Source of the DNA: Halorhabdus utahensis DSM 12940
Lineage (GTDB): Archaea; Halobacteriota; Halobacteria; Halobacteriales; Haloarculaceae
Direction: 5' to 3'
Length of the DNA stretch: 64,000 nt
NCBI RefSeq assembly: GCF_000023945.1
Contig: NC_013158.1
Location: 1,364,001 to 1,428,000 of the forward strand
Positions within the stretch are counted from its first letter, which is position 1. Every line of letters begins with the position of its first letter. A program made the translations under genes and the position numbers. The notes below the pieces were generated by a model, which did not search any database, was not told the origin of the DNA, and worked only from the letters and a program-made list of their open reading frames with translations. Below are positions 3,640 to 55,119 of the stretch, one piece after another.

Positions 3640-3718
3640 ACCCCGAGTCGGCCCGGAACCGCCAAAAGTCGCCCGGTAGCGTCGCGTTCGTCCGGCGTCG
3701 AAAGCAATCGAGGAGGCG

Positions 3719-4017
3719 GTGTTTAGTTAAGCGATTCCTGGGTGAGATAGCCAGAAAGCCCCGAGTGGCTCCGGTTGAGGGCCTCGCTGCGCTCCTCACT
3801 CCGTTGCGGTGCTTACTTCGGCCGTCTTCCCGGAGCCACTCGCCCCTTTCAGTCCCGCCCATGCCGGCTGACCAACCGGCCTCGGGTGGGACTGAAAGGG
3901 GCCGCGTTCTCAGCAAGCCCCGACGACGCAAGCACCTGCCGGAGCGCAGCGAGTCGCGGCAGCTGAGAGCGCGGGGGCTTTCTGGCTGTTGCAAGCGATT
4001 CCCGCTAAACTAAACAC
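3719..4017. repeat. Four-way-junction palindromic element, copy 1, with outer inverted repeats
   Basis: Core 3749-3987 has four stems that abut without unpaired junction bases: outer stem 3749-3762/3974-3987 (AGCCAGAAAGCCCC with its complement); hairpin 1, 3763-3774/3830-3841; hairpin 2, 3842-3856/3888-3902 (GCCCCTTTCAGTCCC); hairpin 3, 3903-3914/3962-3973 (11 of 12 pairs). Outside lies another inverted repeat, GTGTTTAGTTAAGCG at 3719 and its complement at 4003 (14 of 15), and a direct repeat AAGCGATTCC at both sides (3729 and 3993). The apical regions of hairpins 1 and 3 are related as inverted copies. It fills the 399-base gap between cofE and the phosphodiesterase gene. A second copy is at 45868. 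Confidence 0.85.
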
Positions 4018-4038
4018 GACCATCGAGGACGGCCGCCC

Positions 4039-18923: not shown

Positions 18924-19217
18924 ATGACCGACGACGAGGCGATACTCGACGAACTGTTCGCGGTGATCGAGGACCGCAAGGAGAATTTGCCCGAGGACTC
19001 CTACACCGCATCGCTGTTCACCCACGAGAAAGGTGAGAACGCCGTTCTGGAGAAGTTGGGCGAGGAGTCGACCGAGTTATTGCTTGCGGCCAAGGACGAC
19101 GACCGTGAGGAGATCGCCCACGAGAGTGCCGACATCGTCTATCACTTGTTGGTGCTGCTCGCGATGAAGGATATGGATCTGGAGGACTTGCGAGCGGCGT
19201 TGCGGGAAAGACGGTGA
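18924..19217 (+). CDS. hisE: Phosphoribosyl-ATP pyrophosphatase
   Basis: A 97-residue all-alpha MazG-like enzyme of histidine biosynthesis that hydrolyses phosphoribosyl-ATP to phosphoribosyl-AMP. It matches HisE in length and motifs: NLPEDSYTASLFTHEKGENAVLEKLGEESTELLLAAK with the metal-binding EE-x-x-E, then HESADIVYHLLVLLAMKDMDL. The start at 18924 (MTDDEAIL) is preferred over 18912. The last 14 codons (MDLEDLRAALRERR and stop) are duplicated downstream at about 19341. Confidence 0.94.
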   Translation: MTDDEAILDELFAVIEDRKENLPEDSYTASLFTHEKGENAVLEKLGEESTELLLAAKDDDREEIAHESADIVYHLLVLLAMKDMDLEDLRAALRERR

Positions 19218-19284
19218 TCGTACGGCGCGAAGCGCCGTTTCGCTGCTCGCTCGCCTTGCTTGCGAGCAGGAAGTTTTTGGTCCA
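19170..19284 (+). repeat. 115-bp direct repeat, copy 1 (hisE tail plus hairpins)
   Basis: This segment comprises the last codons of hisE, the hairpin CGGCGC-GAA-GCGCCG (19223-19237), the inverted repeat CTGCTCGC/GCGAGCAG (19243-19250/19262-19269) and AAGTTTTTGGTCC. It recurs at 19337-19451 with two mismatches, both synonymous in the hisE codons. Confidence 0.9.
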
Positions 19285-19332
19285 GCTTTTGCGACGAGTG
19301 GGTCGCAAGCGACCCCGAGGAGTAAAAGGTGG
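19284..19332 (+). repeat. 49-bp hairpin module, copy 1
   Basis: The module starts AGCTTTTGCGACGAG, contains the palindrome GGGTCGCAAGCGACCC and ends GAGGAGTAAAAGGTGG. It recurs at 19556-19604 with four differences, two of which swap the hairpin's centre (AA to TT) and leave the palindrome intact. Confidence 0.85.
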
Positions 19333-19336
19333 AAGC

Positions 19337-19451
19337 GATATGGATCTGGAGGACTTGCGGGCCGCGTTGCGGGAAAGACGGTGATCGTACGGCGCGAAGC
19401 GCCGTTTCGCTGCTCGCTCGCCTTGCTTGCGAGCAGGAAGTTTTTGGTCCA
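19337..19451 (+). repeat. 115-bp direct repeat, copy 2 (orphan hisE tail)
   Basis: This second copy of 19170-19284 is offset by 167 bases. It re-encodes the hisE C-terminus MDLEDLRAALRERR and stop without a gene in front. CGA/CGG and GCG/GCC are the only differences in the coding part. It is evidence of a recombination or insertion event at the 3' end of hisE. Confidence 0.9.
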
Positions 19452-19604
19452 CCGGTAGAGCAAGCTCTACCGAGCCTTGTCACCGAAAATCGGAGATTTT
19501 CGGGATGACGAGAGAGCTTCGCTCTCTCGAACCAACTCGCTTCGCTTGCCAAGACAGCTTTTGCGACGAGCGGGTCGCTTGCGACCCCGAGGAGTAAACG
19601 GTGG
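19451..19604. repeat. Run of perfect short hairpins and second 49-bp module
   Basis: Three consecutive 9-bp perfect hairpins with 2-3 base loops are seen: CGGTAGAGC/GCTCTACCG (19453-19472), CCGAAAATC/GATTTTCGG (19483-19503) and CGAGAGAGC/GCTCTCTCG (19509-19529). They are followed by CTCGCTTCGCTTG and the second 49-bp module (19556-19604) with palindrome GGGTCGCTTGCGACCC. The 392-base gap between hisE and the STAS-like gene is made almost wholly of such structure; no gene is seen in it. Confidence 0.85.
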
Positions 19605-19609
19605 CCAGT

Positions 19610-20011
19610 CTACTGCTCGGCGAGCCACTCGCGGGCTTCGTCCATGTCGTCGGTCATGAAGTTCTCGAACGGTTCGTCTTCGAGCGGATCGACAGTCTCC
19701 TGCATGTCCATCTCCGCGATGACACTTTCTCGGTGAACGTTGACGGAGGCGGCGAGACCAACATCGATCATGTTGGGGAGCCAGACTTCCTGCAGCCACT
19801 GCTTGTCCTCCTCGTCGTGGGCTTTGACTTCGGTCGTGTCGATGATCAGTTTCGAAACGTCGCGCTCCGTAAAGACGGAAAGCAACTCGTTGGCACCCTC
19901 ACGGAACGTCTCACCGCTCGAAAACGTGTTCCAGGTGTGGATGAGTGCATTCAGTTCATCGTCGTATTCGATCGTGTGCGTATCCTCATCTCTGAGTGTC
20001 TCTACCGACAT
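19610..20011 (-). CDS. STAS/SpoIIAA-like domain protein, paralog A
   Basis: A 133-residue acidic cytoplasmic protein. The pattern DDELNALIHTWNTFSSGETFREGANELL...VSKLIIDTTEVKAHDEEDKQWLQEVWLPNMIDVGL...MDMQETVDPL resembles the SpoIIAA-like/STAS-type fold seen in haloarchaeal proteins (strand, helix after EEFR, strand LIID, helix). It shares most of its residues with the gene at 20232, so they are tandem paralogs. Such domains act as small regulatory or lipid/protein-binding modules; the function here is unknown. A TATA-like TTTAATAC lies about 28 bases upstream. Confidence 0.78.
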   Translation of the reverse strand: MSVETLRDEDTHTIEYDDELNALIHTWNTFSSGETFREGANELLSVFTERDVSKLIIDTTEVKAHDEEDKQWLQEVWLPNMIDVGLAASVNVHRESVIAEMDMQETVDPLEDEPFENFMTDDMDEAREWLAEQ

Positions 20012-20070
20012 AATCTAACCATCCTATATTCAAGTATTAAATCCACCCCCCAAAATATCGTATCTGATAT

Positions 20071-20090
20071 TCGGGTGATATCTCACCCGA
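20071..20090. promoter_or_regulatory. Candidate operator palindrome between STAS-like paralogs
   Basis: TCGGGTGA-TATC-TCACCCGA is a perfect 8-bp inverted repeat with a 4-base centre. It sits about 35 bases upstream of the TATA-like box of paralog A (near 20036) in an otherwise AT-rich 220-base gap. The position fits a regulator-binding site; no factor is known. Confidence 0.5.
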
Positions 20091-20231
20091 TACGTCCGAA
20101 GAATATCGATTCACCTGCCGGTTGCGTATCCCAAGGAGAAGACCACCCGGTCGAACGCGTCCCGACCTTCACACGGAGTAGACTCATCGAGAAGGGGCGA
20201 TCCATGGGCGAGGTCACGCGGGTGGATCTGA

Positions 20232-20633
20232 CTACTGCTCGGCGATCCACTCGCGGGCTTCGGCCATGTCGTCGGTCATCATGTTCTCGAACGGGAGGTC
20301 TTCGAGTGGATCAACGGTCTCCTGCATGTCCATCTCGGCGATGACGCTCTCGCGGTGCACGTTCGCGGAGTACTCCATGCCGGCATCAACCATCTTCGGG
20401 ATCCACTCCTCCTGGAGCCACTGCTTGTCCTCCTCGTCGTGTGCCTTGACCTCCCGGGTGTCGATGATCTCCTTCGAGACGTCGTACGCTTTGAGGGCCT
20501 CGTACAGCGCGTTCGCACCTTTCCGGAACTGCTCGCCGCTCGAAAACATCGTCCAGGTGTGGATGAGCGCGTCAATGTCGTCGTCGTATTCGATCCGGTA
20601 CCAGTCCGCTTCTTCAACCACTTCTGTAGCCAT
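20232..20633 (-). CDS. STAS/SpoIIAA-like domain protein, paralog B
   Basis: A 133-residue paralog of the gene at 19610, identical in length and closely similar throughout, with the core VKAHDEEDKQWLQEEWIPKMV and the nearly identical tail MQETVDPLEDLPFENMMTDD. It has its own leaderless-type promoter (GCTTATTGAAG about 30 bases before the ATG). Differences concentrate in the N-terminal 60 residues, while the second half is almost unchanged; this could mean a shared partner surface. Recent duplication followed by divergence of promoters is the simplest explanation. Confidence 0.78.
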   Translation of the reverse strand: MATEVVEEADWYRIEYDDDIDALIHTWTMFSSGEQFRKGANALYEALKAYDVSKEIIDTREVKAHDEEDKQWLQEEWIPKMVDAGMEYSANVHRESVIAEMDMQETVDPLEDLPFENMMTDDMAEAREWIAEQ

Positions 20634-32280: not shown

Positions 32281-33615
32281 TCAGTCGCCGTCACCGTCAT
32301 CGTCCGGGAGCGAAATCAGGTTTTCCCGACCGATGCGGAGTTTCTCGACGCGGCCCGCCTCGGCCATCGCCGAAAGCAACTGCGAGACTTTCGCGTTCGA
32401 CCACCCGGTCTCGGTGACGATGTTCGCCTGTTTCATCCGGCCGCCGTTCCGGTCGATGAGCGCCTCGACGTACTCCTCGTCGCTCAGCAACTCCCCATCG
32501 AGCGGCGGCTGGTCGTCCTCGGTCCCACTCGTCTCCGAGTCAACATCCCCGCCGGACTCAGTGGCTGTATCCCCGCCGGCCTCAGTGGTTGCATCCCCGC
32601 CGGACTCAGTGGCTGTATCCCCGCCGGACTCAGTGGCTGTATCCTCACCGGACTCAGCGGTGGTACCCGAGTCGCCGGGCGGCGAACCGTCCGGCTGGTC
32701 GTCACCGTCCGTCCGGGCCGTCGCTCCGTCGTCATCGGCAGCTGAACTCGACGGGAGCAGATCGCCATGACGGGAGAGATACACGCCGCCCGCAATCACG
32801 GCGACCAGGGCGACGATGATCGCCACCGGGGATATTCCACCACCCTGAGACGGGCCTGTCACCGTCGTCTCGGTCGACGTGGTCGGCTCAGTCGTCGGCG
32901 TGGTCGGCGTCGGGGTCGCCGTGGGTGTCGTCGGCCCGGCCGTCCGGGTGGGCGTGTCCGGCGGGGTGGGGTTGACGTCGTAGGTGATCTCGAAGTCGGC
33001 TGGTTGGAACGTCGTCGGTCCGTCCCACCGTATCGTCCGATTCGTGTACCCCTTGGGCGCGCTCGTGATGTCGAAAGACTCGGGGACGGCAACGACGAGC
33101 TGTTGATCGGCAGTCAGCCCCTTGAGCCACAGGCCGTCGGGCCCGGTGAACGCCGCTGCAACGTGGACCGTCGATCCGTCACGTCGGCCGAATTTCTCCC
33201 AGGTGAATGATAGTTCGAGACGCCCAGTCCCGTTTCCCAGCGTGGCGTTGCGTTCCACGTCGGTCAGTTGCATGTCTCGACTGGTCGAGTTGTCCGCGAG
33301 TCGGACGTACCGGCGGAACGTCGCCGTCGGCAGGACGTCACTCTCGTTTGCCCGGAAGGACGTGGCGAGGTCCCGGAAGGAATCAACTGCCGCCTGGTCG
33401 GGCAGCGTGGCGACCATCGACACGTTCCAGTGAGCGTCACCCCCTTCACCGAGTTCGATCCAGATCGTGGTCGAGGCGTTGAGCGTCTCGGCGGTCGAAA
33501 CGTCTGCCATCGAGCCGCTGGCGGGACCACCCGGTTGGGCGACGACGACAGCACTACCCCCGAAGATCGTCAGGAGGGCGAGGAGTGCGGCGACGACTCG
33601 CACAGACGGGGACAT
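32281..33615 (-). CDS. Membrane-anchored protein with cytoplasmic winged helix
   Basis: A 444-residue protein in five parts: signal/anchor helix (~6-28), extracytoplasmic beta-rich domain (~35-215, many NxS/T sequons), Thr/Pro-rich stalk (~220-260), one transmembrane helix (~275-292), then a cytoplasmic part. This last part is a low-complexity linker with the repeat ESGGDTAT and, at ~375-444, a winged-helix domain (EEYVEALIDRNGGRMKQANIVTETGWSNAKVSQLLSAM). The haloarchaeal names DUF7345 and DUF7343 probably apply. It looks like a one-component transmembrane sensor/regulator, divergent from a secreted protein gene. Confidence 0.8.
   Translation of the reverse strand: MSPSVRVVAALLALLTIFGGSAVVVAQPGGPASGSMADVSTAETLNASTTIWIELGEGGDAHWNVSMVATLPDQAAVDSFRDLATSFRANESDVLPTATFRRYVRLADNSTSRDMQLTDVERNATLGNGTGRLELSFTWEKFGRRDGSTVHVAAAFTGPDGLWLKGLTADQQLVVAVPESFDITSAPKGYTNRTIRWDGPTTFQPADFEITYDVNPTPPDTPTRTAGPTTPTATPTPTTPTTEPTTSTETTVTGPSQGGGISPVAIIVALVAVIAGGVYLSRHGDLLPSSSAADDDGATARTDGDDQPDGSPPGDSGTTAESGEDTATESGGDTATESGGDATTEAGGDTATESGGDVDSETSGTEDDQPPLDGELLSDEEYVEALIDRNGGRMKQANIVTETGWSNAKVSQLLSAMAEAGRVEKLRIGRENLISLPDDDGDGD
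32540..32659 (+). repeat. Five 24-bp tandem repeats inside the winged-helix gene
   Basis: Five units of 24 bases (core GCCGGACTCAGTGGCTGTAT on the plus strand, with few substitutions) encode the eight-residue linker repeat ESGGDTAT/ESGEDTAT on the minus strand. In-frame gain or loss of units would change the linker length between membrane and DNA-binding domain. Confidence 0.88.
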
Positions 33616-44740: not shown

Positions 44741-44749
44741 GGTTTTGCA
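44741..44749 (+). promoter_or_regulatory. TATA-like box before the Brp/Blh gene
   Basis: GGTTTTGCA is centred about 27 bases ahead of the GTG at 44772. It supports a separate leaderless transcript and the GTG as start rather than TTG at 44745. Confidence 0.4.
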
Positions 44750-44771
44750 CCTGCCCATCGAGTTCGAACGC

Positions 44772-45824
44772 GTGCAACAGCCGACCGAGCGGGGCGGGTT
44801 CGACGGGTCGGTGGCCGCCAGCCTCGGGGTCTTCCTCCGGTGGACCGGGTGGCTGCCGCTACTCGCACTCGCCGTCGTCGTCCCACTCCTCGCCCCGCTA
44901 CCGGAGTCCGTCCGCTACCTCCCGCTGGTCGCGAGCGTCGTGGTCTTTGGCCTGCCCCACGGCGCGCTGGACTACGTCGCCCTGCCGCGGGCACTGTCCG
45001 GCCGGGTTGATGCGCGGGGACTCACGATCGTGGGCGTCCTCTATGCAATTCTCGGCGGGGGCTACCTCGTGGCGTGGCTGATCGTACCCGTCCCGGCCGC
45101 CGTGGTGTTCATCGCGCTGACGTGGTTCCACTGGGGGCAGGGCGAGTTGTTCGTGCTCCGGGACGCCTTCGGCGGCGGCCACCTCGACGATCGCATCCAG
45201 CAGGCGCTGACGACGGTGGTCCGCGGCGGATTGCCGATGGCGGTTCCGCTGGTCGGGTTTCCCGAGCGGTATCTGGCCGTCCTCGAAACCTTCGTCGAGC
45301 CCTTCGGCGGGTCGATCGGGTCGGCGTGGCTGTTCGAGCCGAGCGGGCAAGCGATCGTAGCGGTCGGGTTCGGGCTGGTGACCGTCGTGACGCTGTGGCG
45401 CGGGTGGCGGCTGGCGAAGGCGAACGGTCGTCGGCAGAGCGACAACGGCGGTTGGCGACTCGACGCGGCCGAGACGGCACTGCTTTGGGTGTTTTTCCTC
45501 CTCGTCGAGCCAGTGCTCGCCATCGGGGCGTACTTCTGTCTGTGGCACTCGCTGCGTCACATCGTCCGGGTCGGACTGCTCGACGAGCGGACAGTCTCCG
45601 CGCTTTCGGCTGGCGAGTGGCTCCGGCCGGCCGGACGGCTGGCGGTCGAGGCGTTGCCGACGACGCTCGCTGCCGGCGGTTTCCTGTGGGCGCTGTACGT
45701 CCTGACGCCGGCGAGCGAGGGGGTCGCGAGCGCGATCGGGGTCTACCTCGTTGGCATCGCCGTCCTGACCCTGCCCCACGTGGTGATCGTCACCTGGATC
45801 GACCGTGAGCAAGGGTTCTGGTGA
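44772..45824 (+). CDS. blh: Brp/Blh beta-carotene 15,15'-dioxygenase
   Basis: A 350-residue polytopic membrane enzyme that splits beta-carotene into two retinals, the rhodopsin chromophore. The family histidines are visible: FGLPHGALDY, WFHWGQGE, LWHSLRHIVR and LPHVVIVTW, an iron-binding set. The gene is placed between atpB and atpD, so retinal supply and ATP synthase genes are neighbours; no opsin is in the window. GTG at 44772 is chosen from the TATA position; the longer form from TTG 44745 adds nine residues. Confidence 0.88.
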   Translation: MQQPTERGGFDGSVAASLGVFLRWTGWLPLLALAVVVPLLAPLPESVRYLPLVASVVVFGLPHGALDYVALPRALSGRVDARGLTIVGVLYAILGGGYLVAWLIVPVPAAVVFIALTWFHWGQGELFVLRDAFGGGHLDDRIQQALTTVVRGGLPMAVPLVGFPERYLAVLETFVEPFGGSIGSAWLFEPSGQAIVAVGFGLVTVVTLWRGWRLAKANGRRQSDNGGWRLDAAETALLWVFFLLVEPVLAIGAYFCLWHSLRHIVRVGLLDERTVSALSAGEWLRPAGRLAVEALPTTLAAGGFLWALYVLTPASEGVASAIGVYLVGIAVLTLPHVVIVTWIDREQGFW

Positions 45825-45867
45825 GGCGTTACGTGGGTGGATTCGGATATGCAGGCCCGACTGTGAA

Positions 45868-46129
45868 CAGCATGAAAGCCCCGAGCCGTTCGAGTCGGGA
45901 GGCTCGTTGCGCGCTTCCCTCGCTTCGCTCGGTCCAGTGCTTACGTCGCCCGCCGTCCCCGAACGGCTCGCCCCTTTCAGTCCCACCCGCGTGTCCTGGC
46001 TGGGCAGCCGAAACGGGTGGGACTGAAAGGGGCCGCTCGCTCGACCTGGCCCGGACGAAGTAAGGACCGCAACGGAGTGAGGACCGCAGCGAGTCCCGGA
46101 CAGTCGAGCGAGCGGGGGCTTTCATGCTG
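45868..46129. repeat. Four-way-junction palindromic element, copy 2
   Basis: Outer stem 45868-45882/46115-46129 (CAGCATGAAAGCCCC, fully complementary); hairpin 1, 45883-45892/45960-45969 (GAGCCGTTCG); hairpin 2, 45970-45989/46014-46033 (20 perfect pairs starting GCCCCTTTCAGTCCC); hairpin 3, 46033-46045/46103-46115 (CCGCTCGCTCGAC). Stems abut or share an end base, leaving no junction bases unpaired. It shares only hairpin 2 and the inner half of the outer stem (GAAAGCCCC) with the copy at 3749; stems 1 and 3 differ but remain paired. It occupies most of the 398-base gap between the Brp/Blh gene and atpD. Confidence 0.88.
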
Positions 46130-46190
46130 GTCTCATATCTGTCAGACCTAAAGTAGCGTATCAGAGCTCTATCTCATACCGACTGAAAAG

Positions 46191-46199
46191 CGTTAACTG
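46191..46199 (+). promoter_or_regulatory. TATA box of atpD
   Basis: GCGTTAACT lies 24-32 bases before the atpD ATG (46223), so atpD has its own leaderless-type promoter just beyond the palindromic element. Confidence 0.45.
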
Positions 46200-46222
46200 A
46201 GTGGCTCGGTTATCGGGTGGTA

Positions 46223-46900
46223 ATGGCCCAGGACGTCAAGCCGACGCGAAAGAACCTCATGCAGATCGAGGACCGGATCGAACTCTCCGAGCGGGGCCAC
46301 GACACGCTCGAGCAGAAGCGTGACGGCCTCATCATGGAGTTCATGGACATCCTCGACCAGGCCCAGAACGTCCGTGCGGATCTCGAAGAGACCTACGACC
46401 GCGCCCAGGCCCGCATCGACATGGCGCGGGCGATGGAGGGCGACGTCGCGGTGCGAGGCGCGGCGGCGGCCTTGAAGGAACACCCCGAGATCACCACCCA
46501 GTCGAAGAACATCATGGGCGTCGTCGTCCCCCAGATCGAATCGACGAAGGTGCGCAAGAGTCTGGACGAACGCGGGTACGGCGTCCTCGGGACGAGCGCC
46601 CGGATCGACGAGGTCGCCGAGGCCTACGAGGAACTCTTAGAACAGATCATTCTCGCTGCGGAAGTCGAGACCGCGATGAAGGAACTGCTCGACGAGATCG
46701 AGACCACGAAGCGGCGTGTCAACGCCCTGGAGTTCACGCTGTTGCCCGATCTCCGATCGAGTCAGGACTACATCGAGCAGAAACTCGAAGAGCAGGAACG
46801 CGAAGAGATCTTCCGGATGAAAAAGATCAAAGCCAACAAGGAAGCCGAGGAGAAGGCCGAGCGCGAGGCCGAAGAGGACGCCGAATCCGCGTCTGCGTGA
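46223..46900 (+). CDS. atpD: A-type ATP synthase subunit D
   Basis: A 225-residue central rotor shaft subunit made of two long helices (~10-75 and ~125-205) around a small domain. It starts [40 protein letters not shown], the classic D-subunit N-terminus (K-x-L-x-x-L/KRDGL). The Lys/Glu-rich tail is haloarchaeal. It is separated from atpB by 1.7 kb containing two other genes and a repeat element and has its own promoter. The upstream GTG at 46217 is less likely than ATG. Confidence 0.95.
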
Positions 46901-51606: not shown

Positions 51607-51700
51607 GTATTCGCCCCACGAAAGTCCGCCCTGAACTTGTGGACTGCGCCGATGTTTCTCCCTCGTCTGGTTCCAACCCAACAAAGGGTCCTGCTGAAAC
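51607..51700. repeat. Two decayed CRISPR repeats at the trailer end
   Basis: 51607-51636 matches the array repeat at about 20 of 30 positions (CCCCACGAAAGTCCGCCCTG core); 51670-51700 is closer but carries a one-base insertion (core CAACCCAACAAAGGGTCC). Their 63- and 68-base spacing equals one repeat plus one spacer, so they are former array units. Decay increases away from the array. Confidence 0.75.
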
Positions 51701-51737
51701 ACGATCACGGCGACGACCACGACCACAGTCACGCCGA

Positions 51738-54700
51738 GTTTCAACCCCACAAGGGTCCGTCTGAAACCAGTCGAGCAGGCGCTCGGCCCGGTCCTGAATC
51801 TGGAGCTTCAACCCCACGAGGGTCCGTCTGAAACGAGTACAGTAACGACGTCTCAGGGTTGAATACTGTCCGCTTCAACCCCACGAGGGTCCGTCTGAAA
51901 CGCCCCGACCCCTGGGGGAGCAATCACAATTGCCAGCTTCAACCCCACGAGGGTCCGTCTGAAACCCTTTTCGCCAACCGGACGCCGGCCCTGAAAATCG
52001 GGCTTCAACCCCACGAGGGTCCGTCTGAAACGCGACCATGCCGCCGAACATCACCGTCGACAGGAGCTTCAACCCCACGAGGGTCCGTCTGAAACGCGCT
52101 CGACGCGATCAAGAACGGCGCGACTGAGAGCGCTTCAACCCCACGAGGGTCCGTCTGAAACGAATACTCAAACGACGTTTCAGGGCTGAATACCATCCGC
52201 TTCAACCCCACGAGGGTCCGTCTGAAACTGTCGTCGGTCCGGGATCGACCCTCGATGACTGCAAGCTTCAACCCCACGAGGGTCCGTCTGAAACAATACT
52301 CAAACGACGTTTCAGGGCTGAATACCATCCGCTTCAACCCCACGAGGGTCCGTCTGAAACGGTGATGACGCTATTACTCATCTCCCTAAACGCGATGCTT
52401 CAACCCCACGAGGGTCCGTCTGAAACTGGTCGCGCTGTCGGCCCCGTCGATCGCCGTGATCGTGCTTCAACCCCACGAGGGTCCGTCTGAAACTGGGCAT
52501 GATCCAGGCTTTCGACTTCCACGTCCGGGCTTCAACCCCACGAGGGTCCGTCTGAAACCTGCCTCACGTTCGCTATCCACGAAACCCCAGTCCTGCTTCA
52601 ACCCCACGAGGGTCCGTCTGAAACCTGCCTCACGTTCGCTATCCACGAAACCCCAGTCCTGCTTCAACCCCACGAGGGTCCGTCTGAAACCCGAAGCGGG
52701 CCTGGGTGATCGCCAGAGCAGCCAGGCTTCAACCCCACGAGGGTCCGTCTGAAACGATCGCATCACCTTCATCGGGGAGCGTGCCCCGCTCGCTTCAACC
52801 CCACGAGGGTCCGTCTGAAACCAGTCAGGTCGGTGTGGTGAACGTCGAACTCACCGGCTTCAACCCCACGAGGGTCCGTCTGAAACCCTGTTTTCACAGA
52901 CGGAGTTCTGGGTTCGAATCCAGCTTCAACCCCACGAGGGTCCGTCTGAAACGCCGAGTTCTATGCTCGATGGCCCGCCGATTCAGCCGCTTCAACCCCA
53001 CGAGGGTCCGTCTGAAACCGGCTCGGTGACTGTCTTGATGCCGAGATCCTCGTCGCTTCAACCCCACGAGGGTCCGTCTGAAACTCGGTCTCGACGCCGA
53101 CGAGTACCGCGAGCAACTCGCTTCAACCCCACGAGGGTCCGTCTGAAACCGGAATCGGCTCTGGCACCGTCGAGAAGCTCCGCGAGCTTCAACCCCACGA
53201 GGGTCCGTCTGAAACCCGACGTCGGCTTTGCCGAAGCCCTCTCCGCTGGCTTCAACCCCACGAGGGTCCGTCTGAAACCCGGGTGGAGGTCCTTGCCGGT
53301 GTGCCCGACGACCGCTTCAACCCCACGAGGGTCCGTCTGAAACCCAGCATGGAGGCCGGCCCGTCGAACTACCCGACGCTTCAACCCCACGAGGGTCCGT
53401 CTGAAACCAGCCAGTCACGTCGCGCTTACAGGTATCGCAATAGCTTCAACCCCACGAGGGTCCGTCTGAAACTGGAACGTCAACGTCTTCGGTCCAGGTC
53501 ACAGAGTCGGCTTCAACCCCACGAGGGTCCGTCTGAAACCGGGCAAGAAGACTCGGTAGCCGTCGCCCTCGGCCTCGCTTCAACCCCACGAGGGTCCGTC
53601 TGAAACTAGTCCGCAAGTTCCAGCATTCGCGAGTCGAGCATCGCTTCAACCCCACGAGGGTCCGTCTGAAACGATTCGGATGTCTTTATGCCCTCGATCA
53701 AAACCAAGCTTCAACCCCACGAGGGTCCGTCTGAAACTCGACGAGCTCGAGGAGAAGGTCGACCAGGTCCGCGAGCTTCAACCCCACGAGGGTCCGTCTG
53801 AAACGGCTCGACGACGCATGACGCACGCACTGATCGCCGCGCTTCAACCCCACGAGGGTCCGTCTGAAACGAGACGACTTGCGGACCGTCGTCGGTCGGT
53901 GCCTCGCTTCAACCCCACGAGGGTCCGTCTGAAACATACCGGGATCGGGATCGACCCAGATCCGCCGCTTGCTTCAACCCCACGAGGGTCCGTCTGAAAC
54001 CCGTCGACGCGATCGTCGCCCAGACCGAACCGATCGAGCTTCAACCCCACGAGGGTCCGTCTGAAACAAATCCCACACGATGCCATGGTTGTGATTGTCT
54101 TGGGCTTCAACCCCACGAGGGTCCGTCTGAAACGACCTCCACGCCGAGGAGGGGCCGATCCCCGTGAGGCTTCAACCCCACGAGGGTCCGTCTGAAACAT
54201 CGCCAGGTCGAGCTGGTCCTGCTGCAGCTCCCAGCTTCAACCCCACGAGGGTCCGTCTGAAACATGCACTCGCCACCGTCGACGATCCCGGACGTCGCGC
54301 TTCAACCCCACGAGGGTCCGTCTGAAACCGACGACGGCGCATATGACGAGTTCGCCCGAATCCTCGCTTCAACCCCACGAGGGTCCGTCTGAAACTGCTG
54401 GAGATCCTCGCCCCTGGCGACGTCGAGACGCAGCTTCAACCCCACGAGGGTCCGTCTGAAACGCCCGAGGACGTCTACCGCGAGCACATCCTCGCGACGC
54501 TTCAACCCCACGAGGGTCCGTCTGAAACCATCGCCCGCCTTCTGGTCGACCGCGCGGAGAATCTCGCTTCAACCCCACGAGGGTCCGTCTGAAACCCGCG
54601 ACCGCCCCGATCGCCGTCGACGACCCGACGCTTCAACCCCACGAGGGTCCGTCTGAAACGGCCGGCGTCTGGGCGAGCGTGTCCTGGAGTGCAGGCTTCA

Positions 54701-55119
54701 ACCCCACGAGGGTCCGTCTGAAACTCCGACGCACGGGACCTGTACGTGGTCGGAACTCCTGGCTTCAACCCCACGAGGGTCCGTCTGAAACTTAGAAATC
54801 ACCCCCGAGATTCATGACAGTCTGCTTGCTTCAACCCCACGAGGGTCCGTCTGAAACGATGTCGGAGATGTTCGAGAGGGTCCGGCTCATTAGCTTCAAC
54901 CCCACGAGGGTCCGTCTGAAACCCGCAGTGAACGCACTCCGACATCGTTAGGCCTCCAGCTTCAACCCCACGAGGGTCCGTCTGAAACCCACTGAAATCA
55001 AAGTCCGACTCCTCTCCGGATCGGCTTCAACCCCACGAGGGTCCGTCTGAAACCGCGATATATAATATATATGCTCGCGTCCTGAACGTGCTTCAACCCC
55101 ACGAGGGTCCGTCTGAAAC
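51738..55119 (-). CRISPR. Type I-B CRISPR array, 52 repeats and 51 spacers
   Basis: The 30-base repeat begins GCTTCAACCCCAC and ends GTCCGTCTGAAAC on the plus strand. All copies are identical by eye except the first (51738), which has T for C at position 2 and A for G at position 14. Spacers are 33-37 bases. Haloarchaeal type I-B crRNAs carry a 5' tag ending TTGAAGC, so the crRNA strand is minus, the leader lies at the high-coordinate end beside cas2, and repeat degeneration at the low-coordinate end agrees. Identical spacers occur at 52559 and 52625; related spacers at 51835, 52162 and 52295. Confidence 0.98.

Follow-up and report, generated by a model that had tools for sequence, protein, structure and literature searches.

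Paired inverted hairpin units between genes are known from bacteria as REP/BIME repeats. In Haloquadratum walsbyi, short non-coding MITEs share their terminal repeats and the length of their target duplication with the transposon that supplies the transposase, and mobility of a MITE has been reported although every matching transposase copy is broken (PMC3119063). The PATEs of the same species derive from IS200/IS605 elements and have neither terminal inverted repeats nor a target duplication, and no target duplication accompanies its SMR-A repeats of about 110 bp (PMC3119063).

Here, we analyzed a window of 64,000 nucleotides from Halorhabdus utahensis DSM 12940 (NC_013158.1, positions 1,364,001 to 1,428,000), in which a hairpin-rich element lies between brp/blh and atpD. 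We assign this element to the MITEs, a known kind of mobile element, as a member with IS6-type ends and an unusual, modular construction from hairpins. Its family has terminal repeats and an 8-bp target duplication in common with haloarchaeal insertion sequences of the IS6 family (PMC7986276; L104, L108 and L113), but contains no transposase gene, and no likeness was seen beyond the ends. Compared by description, it differs from the H. walsbyi MITEs in having as its core a symmetrical four-way junction whose arms can be exchanged. The family is palindrome-rich and transposase-free like PATEs and SMR-A, and its half units are a little like SMR-A, but the presence of terminal repeats and target duplications places it outside the PATEs. 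With bacterial REP/BIME repeats it shares the paired inverted hairpin units between genes; it differs from them in its IS6 ends, its 8-bp duplications and a number of Y1 transposases that is not tied to copy number.

The four-way-junction core of the focal element occupies positions 45868-46129 of the window, without an assigned strand, and consists of an outer stem and three hairpins. In the outer stem, CAGCATGAAAGCCCC (45868-45882) pairs perfectly over 15 bp with GGGGCTTTCATGCTG (46115-46129). The left hairpin arm (45883-45969) has a perfect base of 10 bp (45883-45892/45960-45969), and the adjoining middle hairpin (GCCCCTTTCAGTCCCACCCG...CGGGTGGGACTGAAAGGGGC, 45970-46033) is paired over 20 bp (45970-45989/46014-46033) and represents the most conserved part of the repeat family. 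The stem of the right hairpin arm (46034-46114) measures 13 bp (46033-46045/46103-46115), but effectively 12 bp, because both end bases are common to the neighbouring stems. Every pair in the four stems is Watson-Crick. Folded as DNA, the element reaches -91.3 kcal/mol (z = -8.4); 200 dinucleotide-shuffled versions gave -57.6 +/- 4.0, and not one of them (0/200) folded as well. The four perfectly paired stems of 15, 10, 20 and 13 bp, which the first-pass annotation had described from the letters, were thus confirmed in position and pairing. The same holds for their location between the two genes: brp/blh (44745-45824, + strand; start codon uncertain) matches Pfam BCD (6.5e-69), and atpD (46217-46900, + strand; ATG probably at 46223) matches ATP-synt_D (1.5e-57).

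In the 3.1-Mb genome of H. utahensis, about ten other places match the core, many of them on both strands because the core is two-fold symmetrical; matches were also present in 41 of 60 relatives. Among 84,980 genomes, at least 120 stretches contained an exact copy of the middle hairpin, and the matches listed all came from halophilic archaea according to their record titles. This exact hairpin was carried by 33 of 294 genomes sampled from the class and, in a sample of the phylum, by no genome outside the order. The repeat family was found only in Halobacteria. Its presence is patchy inside one genus, where carriers have five to eight exact middle hairpins and the sister species G006 has the most (eight). 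Haloarchaeal plasmids bear mostly half units, phage records contained no match to the family, and no viral contig carried an exact 17-mer. A literal search of the open literature with the sequence returned no relevant match, just unrelated mammalian and fish papers; the family may already be named in ISfinder.

A complete unit of the family has a length of about 300-400 bp. Outermost is the 8-bp target duplication; inward from it come the terminal repeat GGNNNTGTTYAGWTWAG, a spacer of about 15-20 nt and AACAGCNN-GAAAGCCCC. The first hairpin arm is next, then the middle hairpin and another arm that is inverted, and the unit closes with a mirror image of its first end. The outer stem runs on into AACAGCNN. 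Within this arrangement, two half units face each other, each composed of GAAAGCCCC, a hairpin arm and GCCCCTTTCAGTCCC, and the middle loop joins them. The interior of the arms is conserved (roughly CTCGCTGCGCTCCTC ... TGCGGTGCTTGCGTCG) and the basal stems are variable, with 154 different 8-mers in 226 arms. These stems are nevertheless paired: the commonest count of perfect pairs is exactly 12, and the mean is 9.0 in comparison to 2.6 in mispaired controls. A second composite, made of one half unit and, behind it, a structured tail of another kind (CCTCCCCAGCC ... TCCCTCGCAC ... GCGCGCGCC) with variable hairpins of its own, occurs in several haloarchaeal families (L038, L043, L046, L048, L054, L057 and L059).

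The ends of the units were analyzed in 113 distinct full elements, corresponding to 226 flanks. A match to the end motif of at least 11/14 was present in 63 of these flanks, mostly 39-40 nt from GAAAGCCCC, and was never found in the control window. Both flanks reached at least 10 matches in 26 of the 113 elements, with 0 in the control, and the motif keeps one fixed spacing across many genera. Target duplications of at least 7/8 bp abutted the ends in 12 of the 26 elements with both ends, compared with 0.3% in mispaired controls, and a motif-independent search for 8-bp direct repeats yielded 38 matches versus 5.3 in mispaired flanks. On the side of the insertion sequences, the transposase fragment of L104 scores above the cut-off of the NCBIfam IS6 model, and two intact relatives reach 191.6 and 189.3 bits (cut-off 125). 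The L104-type motif flanks 17 of 20 IS240-domain loci of the genus on both sides at a spacing of about 697 bp. The family therefore combines terminal inverted repeats common with a known IS family, a target duplication of parental length, and short cores (about 230-510 bp) that lack a transposase gene and occur in several copies per genome. IS6-family transposition leaves such shared ends and 8-bp duplications.

One further full copy lies in the same window, as the first-pass annotation had implied by numbering the focal element as the second. This copy 1 is a complete MITE of 307 bp (3715-4021, no strand assigned) with both IS6-type terminal repeats; it starts with GGCGGTGTTTAGTTAAGCG, finishes with GGTCGTGTTTAGTTTAGCG and is enclosed by ATCGAGGA at 3707-3714 and 4022-4029, a target duplication that is exact over 8 bp. 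Its terminal repeats match both ends of the IS element L104, located in the congener G005, over 19 nt. The 307-bp unit was found again in the sister species G004 and G006 with unchanged limits, and all 307 aligned bases are identical between H. utahensis and G006. Constraint was rejected as the cause of this identity; since the flanks are likewise 97-100% identical, it reflects recent shared ancestry or transfer. The G006 orthologue (L244) additionally contains, in one arm, two blocks of 53 and 56 nt that are absent from H. utahensis; both are built of small perfect hairpins and represent either a gain or a loss. A perfectly clean empty site was not among the comparisons of copy 1, L257 and L037: at the copy 1 site of G004 the element is absent and the short spacer has diverged, and the flanks differ for the G006 copy L257 (compared with H. 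utahensis and G004) as well as for L037 (compared with the outgroup G007).

At the atpD site, the element is present at the same position in three sister species (H. utahensis, G004 and G006), which form one clade on the atpD tree (support 0.996). The congeners G001, G002, G003 and G005 and the outgroup G007 have brp followed by atpD without the element. Thus, the comparison of relatives that had been proposed in the first-pass annotation supports mobility, together with the IS6-type ends and target duplications of the family, and an element at exactly this place in all relatives, which would have spoken against recent insertion, was not what we observed. Being carried by three sisters and absent from four congeners and the outgroup, the focal copy is an old insertion in one clade, most simply explained by a single event in the common ancestor of the carriers; losses in the non-carriers are possible but demand more events. 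A possible eroded left terminal repeat (GGGTGGATTCGGATATG, 45835-45851, + strand) matches at 10/14 positions and sits at 39 nt, the spacing usual in the family, but is weak alone, and a possible right one (46157-46173, - strand) is uncertain, with 9/14 matches that are not significant alone and a spacing of 50 nt that is unusual for the family. No target duplication was found at the ends of this copy. Since its own termini are eroded, its family membership rests on core homology and on the presence/absence pattern.

The family has matching termini, target duplications, whole units that recur with the same limits and presence/absence at orthologous sites. We consider it likely that the element is a member of a Halobacteria-wide MITE family moved in trans by IS6-family DDE transposases, and that the atpD copy inserted once, its termini eroding afterwards. 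As short non-coding transposons, the MITEs would depend on the transposase of matching IS6 elements acting on their ends. Following one insertion in the ancestor of the three sister species, the termini would have decayed while the hairpins stayed perfect. The species with the most copies have few IS6 transposases or broken ones: in G006 none was detected, and in H. utahensis the frame is split. The H. utahensis element concerned (L105, G000:C1:1100840-1101145) has two recognisable ends. Half units and the composite with the other tail mostly lack IS6 ends, and the IS6 model by itself does not account for them.

The core itself has been rearranged at the focal site. In G004, it is reversed relative to atpD (REARRANGEMENT in place): the left arm of H. 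utahensis is 98% identical to the right arm of G004 and 69% to its left arm, and the identity of the two cores is 90.9% when flipped versus 78.5% unflipped. G006 and G004 also differ by the flip, because the right arm of G006 matches the left arm of G004 (95% identity). On these alignments, one of the three carrier species has undergone an in-place inversion of the focal core. The right arm of H. utahensis is unlike both sisters; its closest counterpart (89%) is an arm at a further copy within the same genome (L002), which is a hint, though no proof, of arm exchange between copies. This arm may have been replaced by conversion from the other copy, and recombination at the constant junction sequences could underlie both the flip and the replacement. 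Candidates for the upkeep of pairing are template switching that corrects palindromes, gene conversion and a role in transposition. A more far-reaching idea treats the core as a DNA-hairpin cassette in active rearrangement: the four-way junction would be extruded as a cruciform, the constant sequences at the junction would allow arms to flip, swap between copies and gain hairpins, pairing would be restored each time and the transposon ends would only be the carrier; we regard this as conceivable but rather improbable.

Besides the IS6-type MITE, the core could be an independent mobile element of the REP/PATE kind, moved by a single-stranded DNA route with a Y1-type transposase, with IS6 ends gained by a subfamily only. 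In favour of this reading, half units lacking IS6 ends are widespread, most full elements have no recognisable IS6 ends, and Y1 transposases are present in the genus. However, old elements such as the focal copy are expected to lack ends, and the fixed spacing of the IS6 ends in many genera is what an original feature would produce. Moreover, G006, with the most exact copies in the genus, has no Y1 match, and the other genomes of the genus have 0-4 matches whose number is not correlated with copy number. Such an origin therefore appears unlikely to us.

The element had also been suggested as a possible insulator or terminator of transcription separating the retinal gene from atpD. Strong, perfectly paired hairpins placed between genes of the same direction would suit a selected terminator or insulator, as would arms that are 95-98% conserved between the sisters compared with 65-90% in the immediate flanks. 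Nevertheless, a terminator scan revealed no hairpin with a T-tract at the element on either strand, and the core flips its orientation. Using rough gene calls, 59 family members lie in 35 tandem, 18 divergent and 6 convergent gaps, in comparison to 156, 86 and 45 background gaps; this background-like context with few convergent sites indicates no preference for gene 3' ends. The TATA box assigned to atpD directly beyond the element stands as a promoter-like block (CGACTGAAAAGCGTTAAC, 46180-46197, + strand), but not as a companion of the element, as it is also conserved in congeners without it. With the element absent from most of the genus and this block intact there, the suggestion of insulation or termination is left without support and selection for such a function is very improbable.

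It is also very unlikely that the element encodes a structured non-coding RNA whose folding is under selection, although the variable arms retain pairing and the interior sequence is conserved. A-C and G-T departures from Watson-Crick pairing are nearly equal (189 vs 187) and not concordant within elements (p = 0.33), so there is no sign of pairing kept as RNA on one strand. In addition, the two-fold symmetry leaves no preferred strand, presence is patchy within one genus, and an Rfam search of the window gave CRISPR repeats only, with no match in the element. The hairpin pairing is thus probably kept at the level of DNA and not as folded RNA. Finally, the proposal that the element marks a recombination which parted atpD from the other genes of its operon is refuted: the element sits at that junction in three species, but brp directly precedes atpD without it in the four congeners and the outgroup, and inspecting the sequence of G040 from another family showed this order there too. 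The element gave atpD neither its promoter nor its split from the operon, no regulatory role at atpD is indicated, and its link to ATP synthase is incidental.

The window contains further repeats. A CRISPR array of about 52 repeats (51672-55119; Rfam CRISPR-DR24) includes two identical adjacent repeat-spacer units (52529-52594 and 52595-52660) and several near-duplicate spacers (region of 51835, 52162 and 52295). One spacer (52887-52922) ends in GTTCTGGGTTCGAATCCA, resembling the T-arm end of a tRNA gene, and may stem from the attachment site of an integrated element; no tRNA was found in the window. Tandem duplications of 75-98% identity (families D6, D9, D12 and D20) are located at 19170-20613, and a 24-bp tandem repeat, whose unit is a multiple of three, at 32524-32667.

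Taken together, the analysis gives an identity to a hairpin-rich repeat of many haloarchaeal genomes that has no match to a curated RNA family, and removes a tempting but wrong link to the regulation of ATP synthase. The in-place inversion, the suggested exchange of arms and the clean differences in hairpin blocks between near-identical haplotypes provide natural material for studying the maintenance and reshuffling of perfect palindromes in archaea.
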